IMG/VR virus record: IMGVR_UViG_3300049595_005441
Location: 1 to 32,943 of that record
Reading direction: 5' to 3' (one strand)
Origin: a virus
DNA length: 32,943 nt
The notes under the pieces were generated by a model. The model saw only the letters and a program-made list of their open reading frames with translations. It was not told where the DNA came from and ran no database searches. Below, piece after piece: positions 1-30,815 of the stretch; the first letter of the stretch is position 1, and each line of letters starts with the position of its first letter. The position numbers were made by a program, and so were the translations under genes.

Positions 1-1200
1 TGTTCCTGATGGATTGATAAAAGCAGGGTCTTCGATCAAATCGTAGTATGTAATGTTGCTGTTTTGAACTTCTTTTAAAGCTCCAGAACTTATAAAATTC
101 ATCCCTATGATATTTCCAACATTGGAGCCACCAAACCATCTTCTATGCCACATAATTGTTGGCATCTTTATGGTTAAAAATTCATCTAAATCATGGTCAA
201 TATGGAATTTTTCACCATAATCATTTGAAATATTTAGATTTGTAAAATGGATAATTCCAATACCTTTTACATAATCATCATACACACTTAAAAGTCTATC
301 TTCACAATCTGTGGGAGCTTCTATAACTTCGGGGCAATCTATATTATAGCCTAAATATTCTTTCTGCCCAATATAATCCATTGAGCCGTAATATTTGTAC
401 CATTCATAAGCTGATTGAGTTCCAGCCATAGTTTCATTCCAAACATTATTCATGTTGAGAACATTAACATCTTCTTTAGAAAGATCACAGTTACTTATGA
501 ATTCTAAGGTTTCATTATTCCAATAAGGTATAGTTGAGCCACTTCCATAAAATTCTGTAATAGATTCACCTCCAGGGAAAATATAGAAGTTCACAGGTAC
601 ATTTGTTAAAAATGAAAAATAAGGCAAATATCTATCTACGGTAATAATTGTTGACAATGGAGTTTTTTCAATTTTATACCAAAGGTAAAGTACAGCTGCT
701 TCAGTTTCTGAATAAGATAAATCACCTGTAGTAGGTTTAGCTATTTTAAATAGAATATAATCACCATCATTAAAATCAACTGTTCCTATGTCAATAGTTG
801 CTGTTCCATTGAATTGAGAAAGATTTACTTTTCCATAGGTTTTTATGTAGTTTGATGAAGTTATTAATTCATCTGTAGTGCCAGAGAAAAATCCTCTTTC
901 GATAGCTTTGTTTTTAACACAGCATTCAATAACTTGTCTTTCTGCAGGTTCAATTGGTATAAGAATACTACAATCAACTTTCTCAATAAAAGTTTTTGTG
1001 TTCGGTTGAAAATCTTTAGGTTTCAAAATATTTAATGTTCCCAATTCAGTAGGAACTAAATCAATATTTTTGTAATCTACTTCTGAATCTCCTAAAGACC
1101 AATAACTCCAAGTTAAAGCTCCTTTTGCAAGCTTTTGTCTTCCTTTGGCTGTTAGCTTCGTTAGGATTAATGGGTTTTTTTTCTCGATTATGTATGACAT
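1..1200 (-). CDS. Tail/baseplate structural protein, C-terminus cut by window edge
   Basis: I translated this frame by hand: it is open for all 400 codons from an ATG at 1200 down to base 1, so the C-terminus lies outside the window. The stop of the upstream 1076-aa gene lies one base away (TAA at 1204-1202), so the two are co-transcribed. The N-terminus reads MSYIIEKKNPLILTKLTAKG, followed by RQKLAKGALTWSYWSLGDSE. This 'T..GR..LA.G.L..W.LGDSE..Y' pattern is one I associate with the attachment domain of phage tail-fibre and baseplate proteins. The rest is rich in aromatic residues and beta-prone, with no enzyme motif that I recognise. Its position at the end of the baseplate/fibre operon suggests another fibre or baseplate component. 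The exact role is unknown. Confidence 0.75.
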   Translation of the reverse strand, partial: MSYIIEKKNPLILTKLTAKGRQKLAKGALTWSYWSLGDSEVDYKNIDLVPTELGTLNILKPKDFQPNTKTFIEKVDCSILIPIEPAERQVIECCVKNKAIERGFFSGTTDELITSSNYIKTYGKVNLSQFNGTATIDIGTVDFNDGDYILFKIAKPTTGDLSYSETEAAVLYLWYKIEKTPLSTIITVDRYLPYFSFLTNVPVNFYIFPGGESITEFYGSGSTIPYWNNETLEFISNCDLSKEDVNVLNMNNVWNETMAGTQSAYEWYKYYGSMDYIGQKEYLGYNIDCPEVIEAPTDCEDRLLSVYDDYVKGIGIIHFTNLNISNDYGEKFHIDHDLDEFLTIKMPTIMWHRRWFGGSNVGNIIGMNFISSGALKEVQNSNITYYDLIEDPAFINPSGT

Positions 1201-11299: not shown

Positions 11300-14200
11300 T
11301 TAATCAATACATCTATCAAAATAAAATTTTCTTAGTTTATCTAAAGAAGTCTGTCCTTGTCTTATGCCAAAATACGTGTAATATGGGTGCATTCTTCTTG
11401 CAGGACCTTCAAGAGCAGGACCTGGGCAAGAATTTTGATCGTTGTCATCAAATCCAGCACATGTATCAATTGTAAATTCTAAGACTTCTCCAGAGTCTGG
11501 GGAAATGGCAGATTCTTCTAGATAAGAATCTGTTATAAGATTTGTAGGATGAGTACTTGAAGAATATACTCCAACAGTATTATAATACTTAAAATTTTCA
11601 CACAATTTTCTTCTGAGAATTATATCATCTCTATCAAAAATTATAACGTTACTATTCCCATCATAATCAGGTATCGCAGATTCTGTTCCAATTATTGTAT
11701 ATATTTCACCATCATCACCTACAAGTAATGGAGAATTTGCACTGTCAGCCGTTGCAAATGCAATTTCTACACCTGTTTGAGACATCAATTGTATACCATT
11801 TCTATTTATAGGGCATGCTGTAAAGCAATCTAAGAAATCTACTATAGTTCCAGTTCCATCATCTTTTTGATATGAAGTCGCTTCTAGCCTGTCTACTAAA
11901 TATGGTTCTCCATCTAAATCACACGATACCATGCTTCCGAGTTCAATAATATTTGTGGCAAATAATAATAGATATTTTCTGCATACATCTAAACTATTTG
12001 ATGTAGGATCTGCAATATTCATTTCTACATCATATCTTGCAGAATAGTATAAATTATCTTCATATTCAACTATAAGTCCATGATTAGGTGTTGTAAGAGG
12101 GGGATTTGTTACATATTCAACGAAATGATTTCCATATGAACAGTCTCCTGGTGAAGAAGGCGTACCGTTAAAAATTCTTTCTTCTGCAATAATTGCAGTA
12201 TAACATCTGTTTTTTCTACGTGGATAATCAGGGTCATTTACAGGTGGTACTGATTCGCCATAATCTCTACAATTGAAATCACAAAATTTTTCAAAAGACT
12301 TACCTTTCTTTTTAAATTTAACTTTATAATCAAATAAAAATGAATATAATGAACCAATGACCCAATCATTGTAGAAATTATATTTTACTATCCCTGATTC
12401 CTCAGCAATATTTTCATTAACACATCTAATCCAACCAAGTATATTATCAAATGGTACGCCATTACATTCAAATCTATATAAAGTGAGTGGACATTCTTGA
12501 CATTCATTTATACAATCTTGAGCAAGATTAACATTAGTACAATCAACGGAATATGATCCACCTGATGAATAGTTAATACTTTGCATGGTATTAAAGGCTG
12601 TTACGTGAAAAGCAAAACTCTTATTTGTACCAATGACCCCTGGAAGTATATTAAAATTTTCAGCAGTAGGACTTGCTAAATCATAATAAGTATATCCAAC
12701 TCCACCTTCGCCTACGGCAATAGTTATTGAATCTATAATACCTCCAGAAATAACTAAATCGAATTCTAAACCATTTCCACTTCCTGTGCCATAAGTATAA
12801 CTTGATGGTTCTACTAAATTATTGTAAGTTCCATTTGTTGAACTTGTATCTTGACTTATAATAATTATATTTCCTACAGTAAGTGTAAAACTATATCCTG
12901 ATGAACCTACGCCTAAAGCACCGTTAGGAATTGTGATACTATAAAATGGTGCTAATACAAGATTTCCTTGATTTAATATTTTAATTGAGGATATATTACC
13001 TGAACCATCAATTATAATTTCAAATGAATCTGATCCTACAATACTCACAGGTGAAAATGTGGTTGATGGAGTAGCTCCTGTTCCTTGTACTATAGAAATA
13101 GGATCTATGTATGATGGATACAATATTATTGATTCTTTTAATGCATATGTAGTAGCACCTTCATTTCCACCGTCATAACATATTGCACAATCTACACAAG
13201 TGTTACAATTTGAAGCAACCCATCCATCTGGAATGAAATCATCTCCTTCTCTTAAAAAGTTTTCAGTGTCATAACATCCTCTGCACCTGCAAGCACCTTG
13301 TCTACCTCTACTAAAAGGGTGCATTACAAAGCAAATAAACCTTATTACTAATTGGAAAATTATAATTTCAAGTATGAAGTTTATAATTTCCAAAATTAAC
13401 CCTAATAAATTTATTATTAAACAAAAAGCTCCAAAGAAAAATGTTGGTGCAATTGATACTCTATTAAAGGGAAAGGGTGAAGTATTTTCGCATTCTCCTA
13501 CATCTTTTATTCCTGTATATAGTTTTGTATTTGCAGTATCGTCATTTCTTTGATATCTTGGTATGTAGTTTGTTACTGTATATACCTTTTTCCAACGCAT
13601 TTCAAAAAACTCGAAATCAGGAGTATCATCTCCGAATTCAAATCTATTATACATGTTTGGAACTAAGTAACTTGCAGTTCTATTTTTAAGACTACCACTA
13701 TGCTCTTCTAAACCTATTCTGAATCTAACTGAAGCTTTTGTCGCAATTCCAACACCTGGATCTTCTGAAGGAACTAAATTACCAAATTCGTCAGTAACAG
13801 CTTTTTCTAAATTCATTGGAACCGTAAACGCCCAATTTCCGTTTTCATCTATATTTTTTGCTTCGCCTTCAATTATTTCAGTTTCATTAGAATTTGGTAA
13901 AACCCTTCTCAACATTTCGATTCTACCAACACCTGTCGATAAATCACAATTTCTACCAACACCCTTTCTTACACCACATTTTTTTCTAACTGAGGATTTC
14001 TTTGAATCCGAAAATATTGAACCAAAAAATACTGCATTTGGAACAATTTCCAAGTCTAAATTAAAATCAACTCTATTTATACCAACTTCACCTTCCTCCA
14101 AATCTCCCCAAAATGGAATCACATTTAATGCATAATCTTTTGATTGAACTTGAACTAATGACCCTAGATTAACGCCATCTTTATAGATAGTTCTGGATTC

Positions 14201-14782
14201 AAATAAATTTGGATTGTAACCTTGTTCTATTAAATCATATGGTTTTAATGATAGAAAATCCATATCACTTATGTCTACATCCATGTGCATATTTTGTGTT
14301 CCAATAGGAACCCCAAATATCATGTAATCACCTGCTGAATTGGTAGTTGTAGTGAATTTATAATATTTCTCATATATTTCAAGCCAAACATCGTTATCAA
14401 GAACTTTTCTTTTACTTGGAAATGTTCCTATAGGTGTATGACATTCACCTTGCTTATCATCGGGTAGAAGATTGTATCTTACACCATCAGCATTTGTATC
14501 TTTTAATTTTTTGTATGGGTATATATCCTTTATAATTTCGTTAGGTTCGTTATCATCTATTGGAATAAACACAGAAACCTTTGCATTTGGAACTCCAAAC
14601 CCACCATTGGCAATAACTCTTCCCACTATTGCACCATAATTTGATGCAAATTTACGGTATACTTCTGCTTGAGTTAATTTTAAAGACAGAATTTCTAAAA
14701 AATCAAATGATTGATCAATTTTTATCTTTACATATTTATCGCCATCATTAGGCTTCGTCCGAATCCTGATATTTCTTTGCAT
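11300..14782 (-). CDS. Very large baseplate/tail protein with hydrophobic hairpin and Cys cluster
   Basis: 1160 aa. Residues about 50-180 look like a carboxypeptidase-regulatory-type (CNA-B-like) beta sandwich: 'GRVIANGGFGVPNAKVSVFI' early on and 'TNSAGDYMIFGVPIG' at 148-161. Residues 445-489 are a long, almost uninterrupted hydrophobic stretch, enough for two membrane helices. It is followed at once by clustered cysteines, C498xC500xxC503 and C526xxC529xxC532xxC535, which could bind metal. Residues about 560-740 are Gly/Ser/Ile-rich beta repeats ending in 'GG-x-GY-x-Y-x-D', as seen in many tail-fibre proteins. The start lies inside the end of the 89-aa gene (35-base overlap). The gene follows the gp6-like gene, where T4 has gp7, but I see no clear gp7 similarity. 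Function is inferred from place and size. Confidence 0.75.
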   Translation of the reverse strand: MQRNIRIRTKPNDGDKYVKIKIDQSFDFLEILSLKLTQAEVYRKFASNYGAIVGRVIANGGFGVPNAKVSVFIPIDDNEPNEIIKDIYPYKKLKDTNADGVRYNLLPDDKQGECHTPIGTFPSKRKVLDNDVWLEIYEKYYKFTTTTNSAGDYMIFGVPIGTQNMHMDVDISDMDFLSLKPYDLIEQGYNPNLFESRTIYKDGVNLGSLVQVQSKDYALNVIPFWGDLEEGEVGINRVDFNLDLEIVPNAVFFGSIFSDSKKSSVRKKCGVRKGVGRNCDLSTGVGRIEMLRRVLPNSNETEIIEGEAKNIDENGNWAFTVPMNLEKAVTDEFGNLVPSEDPGVGIATKASVRFRIGLEEHSGSLKNRTASYLVPNMYNRFEFGDDTPDFEFFEMRWKKVYTVTNYIPRYQRNDDTANTKLYTGIKDVGECENTSPFPFNRVSIAPTFFFGAFCLIINLLGLILEIINFILEIIIFQLVIRFICFVMHPFSRGRQGACRCRGCYDTENFLREGDDFIPDGWVASNCNTCVDCAICYDGGNEGATTYALKESIILYPSYIDPISIVQGTGATPSTTFSPVSIVGSDSFEIIIDGSGNISSIKILNQGNLVLAPFYSITIPNGALGVGSSGYSFTLTVGNIIIISQDTSSTNGTYNNLVEPSSYTYGTGSGNGLEFDLVISGGIIDSITIAVGEGGVGYTYYDLASPTAENFNILPGVIGTNKSFAFHVTAFNTMQSINYSSGGSYSVDCTNVNLAQDCINECQECPLTLYRFECNGVPFDNILGWIRCVNENIAEESGIVKYNFYNDWVIGSLYSFLFDYKVKFKKKGKSFEKFCDFNCRDYGESVPPVNDPDYPRRKNRCYTAIIAEERIFNGTPSSPGDCSYGNHFVEYVTNPPLTTPNHGLIVEYEDNLYYSARYDVEMNIADPTSNSLDVCRKYLLLFATNIIELGSMVSCDLDGEPYLVDRLEATSYQKDDGTGTIVDFLDCFTACPINRNGIQLMSQTGVEIAFATADSANSPLLVGDDGEIYTIIGTESAIPDYDGNSNVIIFDRDDIILRRKLCENFKYYNTVGVYSSSTHPTNLITDSYLEESAISPDSGEVLEFTIDTCAGFDDNDQNSCPGPALEGPARRMHPYYTYFGIRQGQTSLDKLRKFYFDRCID

Positions 14783-15017
14783 TTAAAACTTTTTTATTAA
14801 TATTTTTACCAAAAACTGCAATAAAAAACACATAAATAGCAGCTAAATTGATGATAGGTGTCAAAGCAATAGTTAATAATATTAAAAAATAAAATAATCT
14901 ACCTAACTTTCCGCTAAAAAGTGCTTCTTTGGGTAATTCATGTTTAATTTCAAAATTTTCAATTCGTTTTTGAGTTTGATTTAATTTTTTGTCAGTAGTT
15001 TTATTGCAACATCCCAT
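14748..15017 (-). CDS. Small two-helix membrane protein, 89 aa
   Basis: I place the start at the ATG at 15017 (MGCCNKTTDKK). A longer reading from TTG at 15077 exists, but it would begin inside the U-tract of the terminator that ends the gp6 gene and would read through the leader motif. The 89-aa protein has a Cys-Cys pair at residues 3-4, a charged stretch, and then about 34 hydrophobic residues (LFYFLILLTIALTPIINLAA and on) with a central Pro. These could form a membrane hairpin. The tail is basic and polar. It overlaps the 1160-aa gene, which itself has a hydrophobic hairpin, so the two may act together at a membrane. A holin- or chaperone-like role is possible, but nothing in the sequence decides it. 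Confidence 0.6.
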   Translation of the reverse strand: MGCCNKTTDKKLNQTQKRIENFEIKHELPKEALFSGKLGRLFYFLILLTIALTPIINLAAIYVFFIAVFGKNINKKVLNAKKYQDSDEA

Positions 15018-15030: not shown

Positions 15031-15070
15031 TGATTTTTATTTTTTTCTTTAATATAATGTTTTTCATAAG

Positions 15071-15102
15071 AAAACAAAAAACCTCCTTTTGAAAGGAGGT
15101 TA
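15071..15102 (-). terminator. Rho-independent terminator after gp6-like gene
   Basis: A 10-bp perfect stem (AACCTCCTTT paired with AAAGGAGGTT, 15080-15089 with 15092-15101) is followed on the minus strand by TTTTGTTTT. It lies 8 bases past the gp6-like stop codon and separates it from the 89-aa/1160-aa operon. Confidence 0.85.
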
Positions 15103-15109
15103 AATTTTC

Positions 15110-16933
15110 TTATGCGGAGAATCTTACTCTTATATCTTTTTCAGGATATTTTATTTCGAAAATTTCATCATATTGTGAAAAAATCGCATTCTGCCCAAGA
15201 AGATTAATTTCTCCAGTAGCAGCATCTGATAATGGTTGACCTGTTCGATTCAATGAATAAATGCCTTGACCTACTTTATTGTAAATTCTAAAACTGATAA
15301 CATTTAATACACCCCCAATATTATTTACAATTTCGATGAGTTGTGACAAGTAAATGTCTTGCCCCATTATCAGTTTTTGTTCTTGTATATATTTGTTGGT
15401 AGCATTTATCACTTCAGAAGCTATCTCGTTTCTATTGAAATTCGGATCTGCAAATAAATCAAATTCAAATGCGATATTAAGAATTTTTCCATCTTTAACA
15501 GAAACATAGTCATTTGGAAGTTTGTATTTTTCCAAATAAGTTGAAATGTTTTCTTTCATAGTACTTGTTGAGCTATTAGTCAATTTTCCATTCGCATCAA
15601 TACCTAATATTGAAATTTCTACTTTATTATTAACTTTCGCAACGGCAGCCTTATAAGGCACACCAAATTTTCCACCCATTTGATAAATTCTACTATAATA
15701 ATCTTTTAAAGTTACACATCTGTTTTGTGCTGCAAAATTATATCTTATAATATTTCTCATTTCTTCAATAGAAGGCTGGTCTGAACCTCCAAAAGCAGGT
15801 AAAGGGTTATTTACCTTCAAAGAATTTTTCACCCTTTGGTTATAAGTTGGATTTTGTCCTGGTACAAAGATATTGTAAATGCCTAAACTTGTCAAAGTGT
15901 TAATACCTATATTACTTGAGGCACCTCCACCTACACGATATTTTAAAAATAATGTAGAATTTGCTTTTGGAATATCTCCTAGTGAGTTATCTAACACATA
16001 ATTCTGAATTTGTTCTAAAAATATATCTGAATTTGTAAGATATTGACTTGATGCAGATGTATCTTGAACCCCATTTCCAAATCTCACTGTTACATATCCT
16101 CTATCAGAAAATTCATACATAAACCTTCTTGAGATATATTCCCATTTTCCAACTAAAACTCCTGGTTTGTCTGAAGAAAGTAATGGTTGCTCAATAAAAA
16201 TTTTGCTTTCAGCTAAAGATTCTACCGAATACCAAAGATTATTTGGGTTTACTTGCTCTGATAAAGTTGGGTTCCTTTGATAATCTGTGCCATCTAAAGA
16301 AATTACTGAATCAACTGATAAAATATCATTATCTGGCAAATCAATCTCTAAAAATGGAACTGAGTCTGCAGAACTGATAACTCTTTTATAAAACTTGGTT
16401 TCACCTGCGACTACCAATTCACGTTTTTTCAAAGTATATGATGAAATGTCTCCAGTGTTATCTACATTTGGGATTATAATTCTATTAGGAGTTCCGTTTG
16501 CTGAAAATGGTGATGAAAAGTCTATATCGTTCAAAGATTCAAATTTTTGACCACCACCAATTACTTGTGCCCCTCTCGATAAAAATGGTGCATATGTTAA
16601 ATCAAATGAATCTCCATTAACAGGGATTTCAACAGAAAAATCACAAATAGTAATAGAAGGTCTTTTAAAAGGAATCTTTAATCCATAAGTTCTTGCTAAA
16701 GACATCAATGACCTTTTTTCTTGAGCATGTTCAAGCAAATTCTCTTGAGCTACCCTATCAATATTAAAAGAAAGCATATCCGCAACTGCAGCATTCAATT
16801 CGATAAGTAACATACCAATTGAAGCATCATCAAACTCAGTATAGGTAGTTGGAAAATGTTTTCTGGTAAAATTTATAAGCTCACTTCTTATACCATTAAA
16901 ATCTCTTGTATAATAATTTATCTTCTTTTGCAT
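15110..16933 (-). CDS. Baseplate wedge protein, T4 gp6 / P2 gpJ-like
   Basis: 607 aa, close to T4 gp6 (660 aa). In T4 a gp6 dimer with gp7 forms the core of each baseplate wedge and closes the ring around the hub. Features visible here: the N-terminal 'YYTRDFNGIRSELINFTRKHFP...DDASIGMLLIELNAAVADML' region (about 7-55), a classic opening of the Baseplate_J/gp6 family; a central beta domain; and 'RVGGGASSNIGINTL' followed by a 'GGSDQPSIEEMRNIIRYNFAAQNRCVT' region (about 380-410) typical of baseplate J proteins. The ATG at 16933 is preceded by the leader motif at 12 nt, and a terminator lies after the stop, so this appears to be a single-gene transcription unit. No Shine-Dalgarno site is present. 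Confidence 0.9.
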   Translation of the reverse strand: MQKKINYYTRDFNGIRSELINFTRKHFPTTYTEFDDASIGMLLIELNAAVADMLSFNIDRVAQENLLEHAQEKRSLMSLARTYGLKIPFKRPSITICDFSVEIPVNGDSFDLTYAPFLSRGAQVIGGGQKFESLNDIDFSSPFSANGTPNRIIIPNVDNTGDISSYTLKKRELVVAGETKFYKRVISSADSVPFLEIDLPDNDILSVDSVISLDGTDYQRNPTLSEQVNPNNLWYSVESLAESKIFIEQPLLSSDKPGVLVGKWEYISRRFMYEFSDRGYVTVRFGNGVQDTSASSQYLTNSDIFLEQIQNYVLDNSLGDIPKANSTLFLKYRVGGGASSNIGINTLTSLGIYNIFVPGQNPTYNQRVKNSLKVNNPLPAFGGSDQPSIEEMRNIIRYNFAAQNRCVTLKDYYSRIYQMGGKFGVPYKAAVAKVNNKVEISILGIDANGKLTNSSTSTMKENISTYLEKYKLPNDYVSVKDGKILNIAFEFDLFADPNFNRNEIASEVINATNKYIQEQKLIMGQDIYLSQLIEIVNNIGGVLNVISFRIYNKVGQGIYSLNRTGQPLSDAATGEINLLGQNAIFSQYDEIFEIKYPEKDIRVRFSA

Positions 16934-18145: not shown

Positions 18146-18232
18146 ACTTTTTTTAATTTCTGATGGTTAAAACATTTGAGAAACTTTATCTGTTAAAGTC
18201 CTGCTAATTTTATTTTTGTTGGCTCTCGCTCT

Positions 18233-18240
18233 CTATTTAT
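18233..18240 (+). promoter_or_regulatory. Leader motif CTATTTAT before the primase-helicase gene
   Basis: Located 20 nt before the ATG at 18261 in a 115-base gap. The bases after it (TTTTTACAAATCAAAC) closely match the leader of nrdB. Confidence 0.5.
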
Positions 18241-18260
18241 TTTTACAAATCAAACATATA

Positions 18261-21200
18261 ATGGAAAAGATTTCCGTATTTCAATGCCTCGACAAAAGTT
18301 CTAAGCCTATAAATGAATTCACTATAGATGAAGCTTTAGGATTTATAAAAGACCACCCAAAGAAAGATATAATTCTCGAATGTAAAAATGATCCAGTCAA
18401 TGGTGGAAAGAAAAATCTTAATTTGATTTATAATGATAGAGTTTGGAATCGTTCTGCATCCAAATTAGACTATGTTAAAAGAAATTTCTATAACCATGTG
18501 AAGCAACAAGAATCTTATGTTGTTACATGGAATTGCTTTGTAGAAGAAAAACGTACCAAAGATAAAATACAAGCACCATCGGGTTATATCTATTTTGATA
18601 TTGATGATTTCACTAAAATATCCGAAGTCAAAAATTTTACATCTTCAGAACAAGCAAAGGCTCACATAAAAAATTTGCTTTCTTCAGAAAATCTAAAATT
18701 TGTAAAGGCTGCTTGGGATTCTTTTTCTGGAGAAGGTTTAGGGTTTCTTGTGAAGGTAGAAGGGCTTTCTTTGGAAAATTTTAGCACAACTTGGAAAGCT
18801 ATATCAAATCTTTTCAGCGGTTGGAATATTAATATTGACCCTCAAACTAAAGATATTACAAGATGTAATGTTCTTCCTTACGATCCAAATATTTTTGTGA
18901 GAGAAGAATCGGGAATTATTCCATTTGATGCTGTTCAACCTAAAGAAAATGTTTATACTCCTATTGTAACAGATGGACTTCCTTTAGAATTAGCTTCAGA
19001 TGTTTTGGCATATCAGTTACATTCACTTTATCATAAGCCTGGCTCTTGGAGTAATAATCATATTTCATACAAGTTCTTTTTCGATTACTTTGTATTTTGT
19101 AATCAAATGGGTATTGATTTGAATGAAAGCTTAAACTATTTGATTTTAAATCAAGAAAAATATCCAAAGATTTTTAAACATAGAAGCGTTGAAGAAGTAA
19201 GATATGGGATTCTCAACAACATTGAAAAATATTATGGGCATCAATTTGGTATCAGAGCAGTAAAAAATGAAGAAGGGCATGAAATATATGGTTTATATAA
19301 AAAATATGATGGGGATGTAAAATTAAAGTTAGATTACATCTGGTTCAATATTAAAGAAAAAAATGGAGATGATAATAAGAAAATCTATAGGATGGCGATT
19401 CTTGCAAAAGAAGCAGGTATTACCAAAAAACCTGTAATAGATTATCTTGAATCCGTACTAAATTTTAATGATAATTTATATCCTACTATTGACAAAATAT
19501 ATGGCAATTCAGACTATTTGTTCGGATGTGTAAAAGTTTTATCTGAAGAAGGTAAATCAAAGAAACTTGAATCTTATAAAAACTGGGCTGTAACTAATGG
19601 ATATAGAGTAGTTATAAAAGATAAATTCGAAGGAAAGCTTGAAAAAACTCTTGAGAATATATTAGAAACAGCTGCCAATATCTATCATACTATTTCCTAT
19701 GATAATGTATTTTCATACATTGGATATTATTTCAAGCAAACGAAAGGACACGCAATAATCAAAGAAACAGCTTATACATTTCTAAATGAAATTATAGAAT
19801 ATTCTTTTGAAGATTTTATTAAAATTGATAATAATATCACTTATTCAGAGAAAAAACATTTTATCAGCAATCTGATCCCTATTATAAAATTTTTAGCTGA
19901 TGAATGTTATACCCAAGATTCTTGGAAGTTTGGTGTAAGAATATTTAGAAATATCACTCCAAAGGAAATTCGTTCAAGATATAAAATTACAAAAGAATAT
20001 TTTTTGAAACCTGGGCAATACATCAATGAAATTAATATTCCTGATGAAGATAACCAAATTATATGGGGTAACACAGGTCAAGGTAAGACAACTTGGATTT
20101 GTGAACACATAAAAGGTAAAAGGCTGATTCTGGTTCCAATTATACCTTTACTTTTGAGTATAGACAATTCCTATAATGCATCAGTTTATTATAGGGATAA
20201 AAAGAATGTACAAGAAGGGGATGAACTTATCGTATGTACTTACAGCAGTTTTCCAAATCTTTTGAAACAAATGAAAAATTGGGAAAATGTTAAGATTTCG
20301 GATTATGCTTTATATGTTGATGAGGAACATAATAATGCAGTGAGTTCAAGCCCTGAATTCCGAGGATATGAATTGAATTATATTGTAGACAACATGCATC
20401 TTTTCAGAAAAAGAATGTTTTTAACTGGTACAAAAATACCTGTTCTTCATCCAGCATTCAAAGATTTCGAAATTATAAGGGTTAATTGGGAAAAAACACC
20501 AATCAAATATTGTACTCCTGTAAGATATAACAATATTTTATTTGCTATTGAAAAAAATCTTAGTAGAAGTGGTAAAAATCTGATTTATCTTCAGAATAAA
20601 AAGGAAGAAGGTAAAATGGGTGAGTTGATTGATTATTTGGTGATGAAAGGTTGGAAGAAGGATCGTATTGTATGTATTAATGCTGATGAAAAAAATAGTG
20701 AGGATTTTACTATGCTCACAACAAAGGAATTAATCAGAGATAATGTTGATATTGTCATTTGTACTTCAGTTATTGTAGAGGGTGTTAATATCTATAATAA
20801 TGATTTTAAATCGGTTCATTTTATGACAGCCGAAAGTGCTACAAATATGGAGCAAATGGTAAATCGATTGAGAAACATTTTCACGAAAAGTGTTGAGAAT
20901 AACTCGATGATTTATGTTTACAAGCCATTGGATTCAGAAGATATGTCTGAAACTGACCATATTGATATTGTTAATCTTCAAGAGAACTATATTAAAAATG
21001 CCAATATTGGAAAAGAACTTTTCAATAAGGCATATGTAACAGGTGATAGTGTAAGTTATAAATCTGCTATAAAAGTATTCAATCAACAATTATTTGGTAA
21101 AAGTAAACTTTATAGAGTTAGGGATGGAGTTTGGGAAATTGACTATTTGAGTATAGCCAATATGGCTTATATTGAAGAAAAACGCTATGCCAACAAGAAT

Positions 21201-22307
21201 TTTGAATTTATGAAGGTATTGCTCCATGAATATAATTGGCAGTTTAAAGAAGAAATGTTTGTTCTTGAGGAAATACATCCAGAGGAACAGTCAAATCTTA
21301 AGACATTGAAATCTGAAAGGAAAGAAATGCTTGTTCAAGATGTATTGAAAATCCTTGAAGAGATAAAAATTGAAGGAGAGGTTGAATGTTGCAATAAAGT
21401 AGAAGATGATGTTGTATTTAACCTTGAATCACTTCCAAGGGCTCAATATCAAGTAAAACTAAGGACAAAAATAAAATATTTATGTAACTCGTTATCTTTT
21501 GAAGATTCATGTGAACTTGTTGAAAAATGGATTAAAGAACATAATATGAGTGATAGAATTTGGAGTAAGATTGTTAGACAAATTAATGTTCAAATAACTA
21601 AAAAAATTAATGCTTTTAGTAAGGCTGTAGACAATTCATCAGAAACTGCCAAACATCTTATAAAATTCTATAAGAAAAATCGTGAGAAAGAAAAAGCCAC
21701 AGGCTCCTTTGTACTTTATACCATTTCAGATATTAACAAAATATTAAATGACATCTTTAGAAAGCTAAATATTTCTTCAGAAAGTGAACATCGCACTTTA
21801 GAAATTATCAAATCATATTTTGATGTTGAAGAAAGGCTTGAAAATGCAGGGTTGTTTTATGCCATACGAGGTATAAAAGTTGTTAATGAAGTCGCAACTT
21901 TCACTTGGAAATTTGAAGAATGGGCTAATAAAAAGTTTGAAGAGAACGCTGTTATCTCAAATACAGAAATTACTAGAAAAATAAATGAATTAAGAAGTAA
22001 GCTTCCAATTCTTGGAATGTATAAACTCGAATCTAGGAATGCTATAAAATTAGTCCATGACTATTTTGATTTCCAAAGAATTGGGGTTAAAAAGATTAAG
22101 AGCGGAAATGAGTATTTGTATAAATTTGCTTCTATGTATCCTAAAGAAATTGAAGGATATGAAATCCAGCCTTTAAGAAAAATTGACATATCTAATAAGC
22201 ATTATGAAGATATGACTGAAGAAGAGTTTATCCAATGTCAACTTAAAGATTCATCAGAAGATTTAAACTATTATATGAATATGACCAAAGAATTTGAACC
22301 GTTCTAA
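18261..22307 (+). CDS. BT4734-like primase fused to SF2 (DEEH) helicase
   Basis: 1348 aa from the ATG at 18261. A longer reading from TTG at 18216 would add a spurious hydrophobic leader and pass through the leader motif, so I reject it. Residues 1-215 resemble the BT4734/VirE N-terminal domain, a primase-polymerase (AEP-type) module: catalytic-type 'YFDIDDF' at 111-117, 'SFSGEGLGFLV' near 155-164 and 'DITRCN' near 198. A linker follows. The second half is a superfamily 2 helicase: Walker A GNTGQGKT (603-610), DEEH box (687-690), motif III LTGTK (721-725), motif V 'VIVEGVNI', and motif VI Q865MVNRLRN. The layout recalls herpes-type origin-binding helicases. It probably primes and/or opens DNA at the phage origin. 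A separate DnaB helicase is also encoded. C-terminal 400 residues unknown. Confidence 0.8.
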   Translation: MEKISVFQCLDKSSKPINEFTIDEALGFIKDHPKKDIILECKNDPVNGGKKNLNLIYNDRVWNRSASKLDYVKRNFYNHVKQQESYVVTWNCFVEEKRTKDKIQAPSGYIYFDIDDFTKISEVKNFTSSEQAKAHIKNLLSSENLKFVKAAWDSFSGEGLGFLVKVEGLSLENFSTTWKAISNLFSGWNINIDPQTKDITRCNVLPYDPNIFVREESGIIPFDAVQPKENVYTPIVTDGLPLELASDVLAYQLHSLYHKPGSWSNNHISYKFFFDYFVFCNQMGIDLNESLNYLILNQEKYPKIFKHRSVEEVRYGILNNIEKYYGHQFGIRAVKNEEGHEIYGLYKKYDGDVKLKLDYIWFNIKEKNGDDNKKIYRMAILAKEAGITKKPVIDYLESVLNFNDNLYPTIDKIYGNSDYLFGCVKVLSEEGKSKKLESYKNWAVTNGYRVVIKDKFEGKLEKTLENILETAANIYHTISYDNVFSYIGYYFKQTKGHAIIKETAYTFLNEIIEYSFEDFIKIDNNITYSEKKHFISNLIPIIKFLADECYTQDSWKFGVRIFRNITPKEIRSRYKITKEYFLKPGQYINEINIPDEDNQIIWGNTGQGKTTWICEHIKGKRLILVPIIPLLLSIDNSYNASVYYRDKKNVQEGDELIVCTYSSFPNLLKQMKNWENVKISDYALYVDEEHNNAVSSSPEFRGYELNYIVDNMHLFRKRMFLTGTKIPVLHPAFKDFEIIRVNWEKTPIKYCTPVRYNNILFAIEKNLSRSGKNLIYLQNKKEEGKMGELIDYLVMKGWKKDRIVCINADEKNSEDFTMLTTKELIRDNVDIVICTSVIVEGVNIYNNDFKSVHFMTAESATNMEQMVNRLRNIFTKSVENNSMIYVYKPLDSEDMSETDHIDIVNLQENYIKNANIGKELFNKAYVTGDSVSYKSAIKVFNQQLFGKSKLYRVRDGVWEIDYLSIANMAYIEEKRYANKNFEFMKVLLHEYNWQFKEEMFVLEEIHPEEQSNLKTLKSERKEMLVQDVLKILEEIKIEGEVECCNKVEDDVVFNLESLPRAQYQVKLRTKIKYLCNSLSFEDSCELVEKWIKEHNMSDRIWSKIVRQINVQITKKINAFSKAVDNSSETAKHLIKFYKKNREKEKATGSFVLYTISDINKILNDIFRKLNISSESEHRTLEIIKSYFDVEERLENAGLFYAIRGIKVVNEVATFTWKFEEWANKKFEENAVISNTEITRKINELRSKLPILGMYKLESRNAIKLVHDYFDFQRIGVKKIKSGNEYLYKFASMYPKEIEGYEIQPLRKIDISNKHYEDMTEEEFIQCQLKDSSEDLNYYMNMTKEFEPF

Positions 22308-23082: not shown

Positions 23083-24312
23083 TTATATATATACTTCAAC
23101 ATCTTCAACATACATTTGAATATCCTCATCTTCAGAGTATTTTTCTTTTACAAGGCTTATATATTCTTTGAGCTTAAAGTCTTTTAACGTATTTAAAGAC
23201 ACACTGTCAAATTTATAAATGTTGTTATAAAGAATTTTTAAAATACCTATTGTAAATTCATATTCTTCAATTTTAATAAAAGGTATTCCACTCATAAAAA
23301 TCGCAATAATAGTATAAGAATCTTCAATATTAGCAAATTTTATTTTGTTTAGATTAAATAATCTTTTTATATATTTTGGATATATATTATATTCAATATG
23401 ATTATATTGTCTTTCTGTGATTTTATTAGATTCTTCACTATATTTAAAATATTCTAAAGGAACGAATTCGCTCAAAAGATTAAAAATTAAATTAATTTTA
23501 TCTAAAGAAAACTCTCTTATATCTTTAATCAAGATATGTTTATCTTCCAAAAATTTTACTATAGTATTGATTTGAGCTTCAGATTCAACTTCAAATTCTA
23601 ATTTATATTTATTAGGTTGATCTGATTCACCTGAAATAGTCTTTTCTAAATCATAAACAACTGAGCCATGTAATGTATTGTCAAATCCAGGAATATTGTT
23701 CACATTAACCCCATTATATCCATTATACTCCATAAATCTAGTAGAAAGTGATCCATAGTGTTCTAAGGTTCCTATTCGGTATTTTTGCCTTATAGAATTA
23801 AAAAGGTTAACAAACTCTTTTAATGATGGAGCTTTTAAATCAAGAAATTTAAGATTATACCCTATTTCAACAATTAACCTTTTAGTATCTGGATCTGAAA
23901 GATTTATATTATGTGAATCGTGAATGCTTGCAAGACTATTTATTTTTTTTAAGGTATTGAATAATAATTCTGCGTGATTTCTATTTCGAGGTTTATACAA
24001 ATGATATAAATCTAAATCAATCATATAAATTGAATTTGAAATATTAATTACAGGGTTATTTTGAGAAGGCGTATCTGCAGTTTGTTTGATTTTTTCATAT
24101 ATTTCTGGATTTTCAGTTTTGAATGTACTGAAATACGTTCCAGATCCAAAATGACCTGTATGCCTATTTTGCATTTGAACTATGCTGTCACTGTAATACT
24201 TTCTACTAACATCGAGACCTGTTAGATTTTTTCTATCTAAATGTACTGATAAGCTATCTTTATATGCTTCAATAATATTAGTGATTTGAGATTCAGTGAT
24301 TAAAACTTTCAT
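23083..24312 (-). CDS. Putative ADP-ribosyltransferase-like protein with CTS-like leader
   Basis: 409 aa. The N-terminus MKVLITESQITNIIEAY is a short helical leader. I-I-E at 13-15 followed by Ala fits the T4-type prohead-protease site, and T4 Alt (an injected ADP-ribosyltransferase) carries a leader of this kind. Residues about 24-62 contain 'SVHLD' and 'HTGHFGSGTYFS' (51-62), which resembles the H...G-x-G-x-YF(S/T) core of ART/PARP folds. Later 'RFMEYNGYNGVNVNNI' and 'DNTLHGSVVYDL' (about 182-212) look like the GYDGV...SVVY strands near the end of such folds. I cannot point to the catalytic Glu. Residues 240-409 are Leu/Ile/Lys-rich and helical, with no known domain. The ATG shares one base with the stop of gp25. 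The enzymatic assignment is tentative. Confidence 0.4.
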   Translation of the reverse strand: MKVLITESQITNIIEAYKDSLSVHLDRKNLTGLDVSRKYYSDSIVQMQNRHTGHFGSGTYFSTFKTENPEIYEKIKQTADTPSQNNPVINISNSIYMIDLDLYHLYKPRNRNHAELLFNTLKKINSLASIHDSHNINLSDPDTKRLIVEIGYNLKFLDLKAPSLKEFVNLFNSIRQKYRIGTLEHYGSLSTRFMEYNGYNGVNVNNIPGFDNTLHGSVVYDLEKTISGESDQPNKYKLEFEVESEAQINTIVKFLEDKHILIKDIREFSLDKINLIFNLLSEFVPLEYFKYSEESNKITERQYNHIEYNIYPKYIKRLFNLNKIKFANIEDSYTIIAIFMSGIPFIKIEEYEFTIGILKILYNNIYKFDSVSLNTLKDFKLKEYISLVKEKYSEDEDIQMYVEDVEVYI

Positions 24313-24695
24313 TAGAATAAAATAGCAAGTTCATCTGTTTGCTTAATGACTCCATCAGAAATTGAATATCGTATTTGAATACCTACTAATTTTTGAGATT
24401 CGCTAACATCCGTTTGAATACTTTCAATTTTCAATGAAGGTATATATCTTGTAACATTAGCAGTAATTTCATCTCGTATGGCATTATACGTTTGCTCATC
24501 CATAGGTTGAAATAGGAATTGTTCAATATTAATTCCAAAATTTGAGTTAAAAAGTCTTTGACCCTTTTGTGTTGTTATCAAAAGAGCTAATTTACTTTTT
24601 ATTTCTTCTTTATCGTTTTGATTTAATCTTAAGAATTTACCTGTTAAATCTTCCTGATATGGAAAGGTAATTCCAAGATTATTTTGGTTCGCCAT
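24312..24695 (-). CDS. Baseplate wedge protein, T4 gp25 / GpW-gp25 family
   Basis: 127 aa, matching T4 gp25 (132 aa). These are lysozyme-like-fold proteins that sit at the inner baseplate and seed the sheath. The opening 'LGITFPYQEDLTGKFLRLNQ' and the following 'EEIKSKLALLITTQKGQRLFNSNFGINIEQFLF' segment (about 30-62) carry the family's 'I...L..LLxTxxGeR...p.FG..l...lF' signature. After it comes 'Y..I..EI...V..YIPSLKIESI' (about 70-95). Unusually, it lies away from the gp6-like gene, with the Nudix/primase/phosphatase block on the other strand between them. A degenerate leader motif (ATATTTTTAT) lies just before the start. It is probably co-transcribed with the 64-aa gene upstream and the 409-aa gene downstream. 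Confidence 0.9.
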   Translation of the reverse strand: MANQNNLGITFPYQEDLTGKFLRLNQNDKEEIKSKLALLITTQKGQRLFNSNFGINIEQFLFQPMDEQTYNAIRDEITANVTRYIPSLKIESIQTDVSESQKLVGIQIRYSISDGVIKQTDELAILF

Positions 24696-28331: not shown

Positions 28332-30815
28332 TTAATACTCATCAGTAGCCCCAACTAAAATATCGTTCACTACTTTATCTGTGAGAAATTCCTCTTTCTC
28401 CATTTCAATAATTAAATTTGCATTATCAAAGATGCAATCCTGATATATGATACCTGATCTGCCAAAACGACTTTTCAGAATAGAAAATGTTGCTTTACAC
28501 ATTGATTGTTGTTCCAATGTTCTTGCAAGAGAAGCTACAAAGTGTGCTACCTTATACTTTCCAAAGTCACCTCCCATTTGTTCACCAGTAAGTAATTTTG
28601 TATTTAAAGAAGCTTTGGTTCCTTGGGTAAATACCCAACAAGCAAAATTAAGTTGGTCTTTTCCACATAATTTTTCAAGATCTCTTGCTATTTCTGATTG
28701 CCCTTCCCATCCAGAACTATAACTTTTTTTTGGTTTAATACAATCTAAGTAGTCAATAATTACCAAATCAAATTTAATCTTTTTGTATTCACCTGTATCT
28801 GGAAAATATACTCCTTGTTCTTGTGCTCTGATATAAAGATTTTTTATATCTTCAACAGTAGTTTCAGTGGAATCCATTGAATGTAATACCAGACTTCCAC
28901 CTTTTTCACTTATTTTTCTGAGCTTATCATCTGTTTCTTTAATTACAACTTTACGATTCTTTTTATTTGAAGAAAAATTAATGGGTTTACCAATAAGCTT
29001 TGCAACATGCTTCATTTTGATTTGTTCTTCAGTATCTTCAAAAAATATCTGAAGAACATTATAACCATCTTTTGCAGCATTGTTACTTACATATGTAGAA
29101 AATGTAGTATTATGTGTTAAAATAAAATCATCTGTAACATATAACTGATCTTCATTGGAAACTTTAATACAAATACATTCATCAATTCCCTCTAAAGAAA
29201 TATCTTTTATACTTTTATTATTTTTATAATGATTTCTTGGAATATATCTTGATTGCTTTCTTATTAAATGTGAAATCAATTTTATATCATCATTAAATGA
29301 CACATTTATATGATAAGAAATTCTTCCTTTCTTTTTTTCACCTTTATAAGTATAATATTTTTGTTTTTCTATAATTTGACCAGAATATCCTCCAACTGAT
29401 AAAACAAGAAATCTAAAATCTTCAGCTAATTTTTTAGATGTAGATGCAAATGTAATATTACCTCTTTTACCGATATACCCATCTGTATCAATTAAACCTC
29501 TAATTAGTTCTAATCTATCTTCAAATGAAGCAAACAAATATTTTTTAGGAATAAATTTTTCATAAGACCTTTTTCCGAGAAGTCCTTCTACTTCTACTAA
29601 GTTTTTTAATCTATTTACTTTATATTTAATTTTATCTTTGATTCTATAATCATATACACTGTATTTTACCAATTCATATTCTTCACCAAGAATTTCAATA
29701 ACTTTATCTAATAATTGTTGATCACCATTTGATATAGCAAAGTTACCACTTAATGAACCATCTCCAATTAAAACTCCTAATAAATATGGATGAATATCCA
29801 AATTATCAGTACTATTAAAATCTGCAAAAGGAATTCTTGGAATCCTATAATTTGCCTCGCCATTACCTCTTTTATAATTTCTCATTATTGTTTCAAGAGA
29901 ATAAGTTCGATATGTCTCTGTTTTATTATCAATATCATCTTTAGTTTTTACATTCCACAAATGATCTTTACAACAATATGTATATGTATTATCTGTAAAA
30001 GATATTTTATAATATTCTTTTTTTCCTTGAGGATATACCCCTAATACTTTTTGGGGTTTACCATCTGATCCTAAAATTTCATCTCCAATTTTTATTTCTG
30101 AAAATGTTTTATATCCATTAGGAGTATAAATCTTGCAAAAATGAGGTTGAGCTTTCCCTGCACCTGATGGAGCAATAAACAATGCAAATTCTCCATAAGC
30201 TAATCCACCATTCATATCAGAATCCAAAGCAGATATCTTTGTAGGAATGGGATGTCTTTCTCCTTCTTCCAAATGTCGATAATCCCCAGGAACAAAAGCC
30301 TCCAAAGGATTTTCATCTACATCAGAAATTATATTTCTCTGAAGAAGTGTTGGTATTTCATTAAATTTTTCATATTTTCCTTGGATAACTAATGCTTTAA
30401 TTTCATCCAAACAAGAAAATACGTTCTTAGAATTTATAAAGTTTACAAGATTATCTTTTACCCATTTAGGCTCTTCAATATGAGATTTTTGAATATCCCT
30501 CAAATATTCAATAAAAAGCTCTCTATCGTATTCATTTTGGGCATTAGCTAAAATCCTTTCTTTGATTGTATCGTAGAAAGGAATCTTATTGTTTACTTTA
30601 TAATGATTCTTTATTGACACAACAAGCCTTTGTGCCAATGAATTCGTAAAATGCTCCGAAGAAAGTTTATTTATTATCTTGCGACCAAAAGAATCATCCC
30701 TTACAACCCCATTGCCCTTAACTTCTTTAGATCCTATAATTAAGTTCAAAACTTTTAATTCATATTCTTCACCAAAAAAACCTAATCCTATATTTTTATC
30801 TTCAAAATGTTTCAT
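28332..30815 (-). CDS. dnaB: DnaB/T4 gp41-like replicative helicase with class 3 intein
   Basis: The 827-aa precursor holds a 479-aa helicase and a 348-aa intein (residues 222-569). The helicase is RecA-type: Walker A SGAGK221 continues with T570-T571 after splicing. E593 (FFEDT) is the likely catalytic Glu, Walker B is VIIDYLD (D688), and Q731 (FTQGTKAS) fits motif H3. The N-terminal 170 residues are helical, as in DnaB and T4 gp41. It unwinds DNA ahead of the fork and usually recruits a primase. Its partner could be the BT4734-like primase of the window, which is inference. Splicing must happen before the P-loop can bind ATP, so the protein should be inactive until then. The start is ATG 30815, with leader motif CTATTTAT 18 nt upstream. 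A strong terminator of the previous operon lies about 60 bases further upstream. Confidence 0.93.
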   Translation of the reverse strand: MKHFEDKNIGLGFFGEEYELKVLNLIIGSKEVKGNGVVRDDSFGRKIINKLSSEHFTNSLAQRLVVSIKNHYKVNNKIPFYDTIKERILANAQNEYDRELFIEYLRDIQKSHIEEPKWVKDNLVNFINSKNVFSCLDEIKALVIQGKYEKFNEIPTLLQRNIISDVDENPLEAFVPGDYRHLEEGERHPIPTKISALDSDMNGGLAYGEFALFIAPSGAGKAQPHFCKIYTPNGYKTFSEIKIGDEILGSDGKPQKVLGVYPQGKKEYYKISFTDNTYTYCCKDHLWNVKTKDDIDNKTETYRTYSLETIMRNYKRGNGEANYRIPRIPFADFNSTDNLDIHPYLLGVLIGDGSLSGNFAISNGDQQLLDKVIEILGEEYELVKYSVYDYRIKDKIKYKVNRLKNLVEVEGLLGKRSYEKFIPKKYLFASFEDRLELIRGLIDTDGYIGKRGNITFASTSKKLAEDFRFLVLSVGGYSGQIIEKQKYYTYKGEKKKGRISYHINVSFNDDIKLISHLIRKQSRYIPRNHYKNNKSIKDISLEGIDECICIKVSNEDQLYVTDDFILTHNTTFSTYVSNNAAKDGYNVLQIFFEDTEEQIKMKHVAKLIGKPINFSSNKKNRKVVIKETDDKLRKISEKGGSLVLHSMDSTETTVEDIKNLYIRAQEQGVYFPDTGEYKKIKFDLVIIDYLDCIKPKKSYSSGWEGQSEIARDLEKLCGKDQLNFACWVFTQGTKASLNTKLLTGEQMGGDFGKYKVAHFVASLARTLEQQSMCKATFSILKSRFGRSGIIYQDCIFDNANLIIEMEKEEFLTDKVVNDILVGATDEY
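29109..30152 (-). other. Class 3 intein with LAGLIDADG homing endonuclease
   Basis: 348 residues, starting with Ala (A222; no Cys/Ser/Thr) and ending in THN569, followed by T570. The class 3 triplet is present: Trp in block B (KDHLW287, with H285), Cys at F:4 (C549 in CICIKV) and Thr at +1. In class 3 inteins that Cys starts splicing in place of the missing first residue. The middle part has two LAGLIDADG blocks, LLGVLIGDGS (acid D352) and LIRGLIDTDGYI (acid D445), so the homing endonuclease looks intact. The insertion lies between K and T of the GAGK-TT P-loop, the most conserved codons of the host gene. Confidence 0.9.

Follow-up and report, generated by a model that had tools for sequence, protein, structure and literature searches.

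A baseplate-cluster protein with a membrane-type helix, and its small partner gene, in uncultured contractile-tailed giant phages

The locus and its baseplate genes

The window (the whole stretch of DNA that was analysed) is a 32.9-kb virus record, itself a fragment. Wedge genes of the T4 type are found in it, a gp6/J-like gene having the gene of another wedge subunit, presumably of the gp25 type, nearby (Table 1). Genes for ribonucleotide reductase and a DnaB-like helicase are also located nearby. An intein-like block, matching LAGLIDADG_3 and Hint, splits the helicase gene (28332-30815, minus strand; 827 aa). The opposite strand (18216-22307, plus) encodes a protein of 1363 aa whose N-terminal domain is BT4734-like and which also matches a helicase weakly. 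The gp6-type gene is immediately followed by a small gene and a large gene encoding a protein of 1160 aa, and this is a fixed place for the large gene in many relatives.

Table 1. Features of the baseplate gene cluster, in the direction of the minus strand
Feature	Position	Strand	Basis or remark
Baseplate wedge subunit	24312..24695	(-)	PHROG 261 E 5.7e-20; PHROG 43
gp6/J-like baseplate wedge protein, encoded immediately upstream of the pair	15110..16933	(-)	PHROG 219 E 1.2e-18; PHROG 6; Baseplate_J E 6e-4
Small partner gene, 89 aa, ATG at 15017 (MGCCNK...)	14748..15017	(-)	35-nt overlap with start of large gene
Membrane segment of small partner, residues about 41-69	14811..14897	(-)	KD19 2.33; positions hand-counted from translation
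1160-aa baseplate-cluster protein	11300..14782	(-)	ORF
N-terminal beta domain, residues 33-247, carboxypeptidase-regulatory/CnaB/transthyretin-like arrangement	14042..14686	(-)	Fold comparison
Long hydrophobic helix, residues 448-487	13322..13441	(-)	Hydropathy, alignment, AlphaFold2
Cys-rich domain, first part, C498-C535	13178..13291	(-)	
Low-confidence insert (low pLDDT), residues about 543-744, splitting the Cys-rich domain in this protein's subfamily	12551..13156	(-)	
Cys-rich domain, second part, C748-C787	12422..12541	(-)	
FYNDW motif, residues 803-807, family anchor 3' of the hydrophobic module	12362..12376	(-)	

The 1160-aa protein has no family in Pfam, PHROG or NCBIfam, and searches of PDB sequences with family profiles of 5 and 70 rows found nothing apart from one unrelated match (E 1.1). 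No sequence match to gp7, gp8, gp10, gp11 or gp53 was obtained in PHROG, Pfam or PDB; the absence of these proteins from the fold lists is uninformative. The AlphaFold2 model of the full-length protein (mean pLDDT 69, pTM 0.69) consists mainly of beta structure plus one long helix, and thus differs from a tape measure, which is very long and mainly a helical coiled coil. The best VIA-align comparison of the N-terminal beta domain (Z 7.6, rmsd 2.1, 81 aligned) is within the range of common arrangements. Pfam CarboxypepD_reg reaches E 0.27 against the protein, and the scores of relatives are also below the cut-off. The long helix and a Cys-rich domain are an insertion between conserved beta-rich parts.

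No SprB match over the Pfam cut-off is present in the 1160-aa protein itself, while SprB repeats pass this cut-off in the relatives L006, L075 and L129 (relatives are numbered here by locus), where they make up a fibre-like C-end. Such repeats are typical of Bacteroidota surface proteins and would hint at hosts in that group; a C-end of this sequence type suggests exposure on the particle.

The hydrophobic helix and the cysteine-rich domain

A first-pass annotation of this DNA had placed a membrane-type hairpin and a cysteine cluster at positions 13178-13450, which map exactly onto residues 535 down to 445. Residues 445-489 are indeed extremely hydrophobic: the best 45-residue window (442-486) has a mean Kyte-Doolittle value of 2.18, while the best windows in 1000 shuffles of the protein average 1.00, with a maximum of 1.90. 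Chance composition was ruled out by these shuffles. The wording "almost wholly hydrophobic" is fair, since residues 448-487 hold just six polar residues (N458, E465, N468, E472, Q477 and R481). Two of the 20 ORFs of the window have a KD19 above 2.0, namely the large one (2.48) and the one directly upstream of it (2.33).

Membrane character was judged from hydropathy, conservation and the predicted fold. In AlphaFold2 models, a single uninterrupted helix takes the place of a hairpin both in the 1160-aa protein (448-487, with helix blocks at pLDDT about 82-90) and in the relative L129, where a compact Cys-rich domain (pLDDT about 90-98) comes after a 57-residue helix (pLDDT 94-98). The two-helix hairpin was dropped as the default reading because each model has one helix; as these models are of single chains, built without partner or lipid, a hairpin could still form in a membrane. 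A length of 40-57 residues exceeds one bilayer crossing, which is a point against membrane insertion. A fold search with the helix and the Cys domain gave nothing significant, which is no proof of a new fold.

The position of the helix within the family is fixed. It lies between FYNDW and a conserved P-x-N motif immediately 5' of it (P438 in 70/70 and N440 in 68/70 aligned relatives), and within it C454 is found in 63 and N468 in 66 of the 70. The hydropathy of columns 449-484 has a helical periodicity of 97.5 degrees (permutation P 0.0018 for helical angles, 0.05 for all angles), with a stripe of polar or small residues near 458, 461, 465, 468, 472/473, 476, 481 and 484, the other faces being hydrophobic. 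Judged by sequence, a single polar stripe on an otherwise hydrophobic surface is the opposite of what a soluble coiled coil would have. Run lengths were surveyed in 245 of the 278 loci with a large gene (those with at least 400 nt upstream, at least 500 aa and a profile score of at least 500), which 3-mer similarity reduced to 119 distinct loci; 114 of these have a hydrophobic run of at least 20 aa at the helix site, the longest runs being about 20 to 75 aa. The membrane-type segment in a protein of the baseplate gene cluster is thus conserved family-wide at one place, while the hairpin and, as set out below, the metal latch of the original proposal are not supported.

The seven cysteines after the hydrophobic stretch are present as described (498, 500, 503, 526, 529, 532 and 535), and such clustering, with at least seven of the protein's 31 cysteines inside a 38-aa window, arose in 31 of 5000 shuffles. 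The family profile matches the protein in two blocks, 391-496 and 742-873; therefore, residues about 497-741 include an insert of some 200 aa. Six further cysteines at 748-787 probably belong, from their sequence context, to the same Cys-rich domain.

A search for the CxCxxC and CxxCxxCxxC layout across relatives found it to be limited to a subfamily, with parts of it recurring elsewhere. Common cysteine columns are C535 (41/70), C787 (67/70), C834 (68/70) and C954 (66/70). A strict conserved metal motif was considered and rejected, as C500 and C526 occur in just 6 and 7 of the 70 aligned relatives. The number of cysteines from the helix to FYNDW is even in 41 of 52 relatives, and two columns, each with cysteine in 51 of the 52, covary perfectly, rows being counted irrespective of kinship in both cases. 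A second group of four other columns covaries in part of the family. Mostly even numbers and a perfectly covarying pair suit disulfides at least as well as the proposed "metal site as latch", so a metal site is no better supported than disulfides; the sequence pattern would fit disulfides or paired ligands.

The small partner gene and the distribution of the family

The upstream neighbour, which was absent from the first-pass annotation, encodes an N-terminal Cys pair and one membrane segment. It has weak library matches (PHROGs E 0.067, NCBIfam E 0.0065). In relatives, the N-ends read MGCNCK, MGCSTC and similar, and among 98 distinct versions the median length is 114 aa, the last 35 residues being net acidic in 66. 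The partner gene overlaps or abuts the large gene in most relatives. A terminator-like inverted repeat with a T run (15070-15101, minus strand) is located between the gp6-type gene and the partner gene; because it lies 5' of the pair, the two genes may form their own transcription unit.

Single-sequence searches yielded four loci of the large protein, and a small profile five viral loci and two genome-contig loci. With a 7-row profile, at least 544 of 600 stretches were confirmed as relatives, on uncultured phage contigs numbering in the hundreds, and 80 were kept; a distant family member used as query added 78 further loci, all of its own clade. A tail-sheath family is encoded in 12 of the 18 records carrying relatives, including all seven over 270 kb. 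The family is large and widespread, and belongs to uncultured, contractile-tailed giant phages.

Among deposited phages the picture is different: tblastn with five different family members against 50,697 phage records found no relative, one query matching one record through C-terminal repeats only. In BFVD, by fold and sequence, there is one full-length relative, from Myoviridae sp. ctPuP5 (A0A8S5LA66; E 1e-60, 26% identity), which is annotated merely as an uncharacterized protein. This phage is, we take it, of metagenomic origin. At 28-29% identity, the gp6-type gene has matches in Flavobacterium phage immuto, Microcystis phage Mel-JY01 and one huge phage that is uncultured. These three were rejected as carriers, as the family profile finds nothing in the matched regions and the similarly placed large genes lack a strong hydrophobic segment. 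The contig carrying one family member (L007), 83.8 kb long, is listed with a Prochlorococcus single-cell genome, which could reflect an infected cell, a co-sorted virus or a mis-filed contig.

The association between helix and partner was followed on a tree of the N-terminal region with 109 distinct loci, selected in a comparable way with 560 aa as the minimum length. Seventeen of these form the L087 clade, which has no partner; the other 92 comprise 88 with the helix and four without. Outside the L087 clade, the partner is found in 86 of the 88 distinct helix-bearing loci, the exceptions being L026 (helix of 21 aa) and L038 (34 aa). An intact partner is found in none of the four helix-less loci, whose longest runs are at most 14 aa: L008, L079 and L109 have no partner, and the version in L063, of 66 aa, is degenerate and its segment weak (profile E 0.012). 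These four loci sit at three separate places on the tree. Loci with a weak helix (L059, L065, L067 and L070) retain the partner. Treekit's sign test of this partial co-loss, run on independent pairs, does not reach significance (median p 0.25) because such pairs are too few; the opposite direction was never seen. The simplest account of these sequence patterns would be that the helix and the small membrane protein act together.

Some assignments in these counts need explanation. The hydropathy threshold of the tree survey had L026, L059, L065, L067, L070 and L071 as helix-poor; all six were counted as helix-bearing because runs of 19-25 aa are present. L071, whose large gene is divided between two ORFs, was for that reason first scored as lacking the partner, and was counted as partner-present on a profile match (E 2.9e-8). 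L182 was set by hand to partner-present, the gene being 913 nt upstream.

In the L087 clade (L073-L088 and L202-L279), the helix site holds more than 100 largely hydrophobic residues in several runs, followed by a short Cys motif, and the baseplate-cluster protein reaches up to 1900 aa. A hidden partner was sought here and rejected: in 92 clade loci, the small-gene profile gives none below E 0.8. Between the gp6-type and large genes, L074, L087 and L214 encode a further protein of 308 aa that has a membrane segment; L252, L255 and L271 do not.

Possible roles at infection or in assembly

Hydrophobic segments that may enter membranes are known from tail proteins. In phi29, a hydrophobic stretch of gp9, the L-loops, is described as exiting the tail knob once the genome is released and forming a helix barrel, largely hydrophobic, that serves to penetrate the membrane (PMC6542822). 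What is alike is the hydrophobic stretch inside a tail protein, known from sequence in the 1160-aa protein; however, gp9 is the knob protein of a short-tailed phage, whereas most records with relatives of the 1160-aa protein encode a sheath. A sequence relation between the family profile and gp9 is not detectable. To our knowledge, gp9 has neither a Cys-rich domain nor a small membrane partner.

In T5, the tape measure form pb2* has 46 hydrophobic residues for which two transmembrane helices are proposed (PMC10038345). That protein belongs to a long flexible tail, while here the segment is an insert with one predicted helix in a beta-rich protein. In T5 and phi29 there are genuine precedents for the insertion of hydrophobic tail-protein segments into host membranes. 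A third tape measure, that of TP901-1, has two hydrophobic regions with three predicted spans each, and its authors favour recruitment of a chaperone over membrane insertion (PMC5099701). Chaperone recruitment to hydrophobic regions of a tail protein would parallel shielding by the small partner; unlike the present protein, TP901-1 offers a tape measure, for which the cited part describes no Cys-rich domain.

By analogy, the two genes are best read as encoding a two-protein baseplate element for membrane insertion, comparable to the segments of phi29 gp9 and T5 pb2 and unrelated to them in sequence. Our tentative preference is for a tail or baseplate component with a membrane-type helix, a Cys-rich domain and, usually, a small partner, in which the helix enters an envelope membrane at infection. 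We infer that it is a part of the virion inserting at infection, which is the most likely reading because the gene is part of a baseplate cluster and SprB repeats form the C-end of relatives. The small partner would shield or hold the helix during baseplate building. Upon host contact, the helices of several copies might be released and enter the envelope membrane, where they could anchor the tail or line a path for DNA; the Cys-rich domain would fix the base of the helix through disulfides or metal.

How the DNA of contractile-tailed phages passes the inner membrane is not settled. It is tempting to speculate that the pair is an entry device, in which the partner holds the helix and several copies insert on contraction to form a protein-lined passage, the L087 clade achieving the same with one chain and several runs. 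Such a conduit is doubtful. If true, it would provide a step that classical models of contractile tails assign to the rigid spike and tube alone.

Alternatively, helix and small membrane protein might tether the growing baseplate to the inner membrane of the host and have no role in DNA entry. The partner gene adjoins and often overlaps the large gene, so that both would be made together in the infected cell, and the co-loss fits equally well. However, L008, L079 and L109, which lack both, have otherwise intact baseplate genes, so anchoring is not general, and we know of no phage baseplate that is assembled on a membrane. We regard a tether of this kind as unlikely.

It is also rather improbable that the helices of several copies, together with that of the partner, form a buried bundle in the baseplate hub and never meet lipid. 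The model of L129 does predict one long, continuous, high-confidence helix beside a compact Cys-rich domain; eight alignment columns within the helix are missing in some relatives, as in a coiled-coil rod, and the polar stripe could serve as the bundle interface. Against this, the helix surface is mostly hydrophobic, too much so to be buried by a single bundle face; several hydrophobic runs lie at the site in the L087 clade; and the partner resembles a membrane protein. A protein that acts in a membrane of the infected cell, is no virion part and lies in the baseplate cluster by chance would agree with the lack of a sequence match to any known virion protein, but is very improbable given the fixed place after the gp6-type and small genes in many relatives, the beta-rich N-terminal domain and the fibre-like SprB C-end of relatives.

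Among the papers listed by literature searches on baseplates and transmembrane segments in giant phages, or on SprB and baseplates, none has a title or opening abstract describing such a protein; those listed for the phi29 gp9 loops were unrelated. As far as searched, the location in a baseplate cluster of contractile giant phages, the partner, and a clade with several hydrophobic runs are undescribed. A gene pair that Pfam, PHROGs and NCBIfam do not recognise in the 32.9-kb stretch, and that recurs on many uncultured phage contigs, can be named. Helix and partner hint at how these phages may bring DNA through the cell envelope, and a role in membrane insertion is directly testable because this widespread helix and linked partner family has natural relatives that lost both. 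Tape-measure-sized ORFs are found in two related records, and one of these, of 2289 aa, has a hydrophobic stretch of its own (KD19 2.37); therefore, the membrane job might be done elsewhere.
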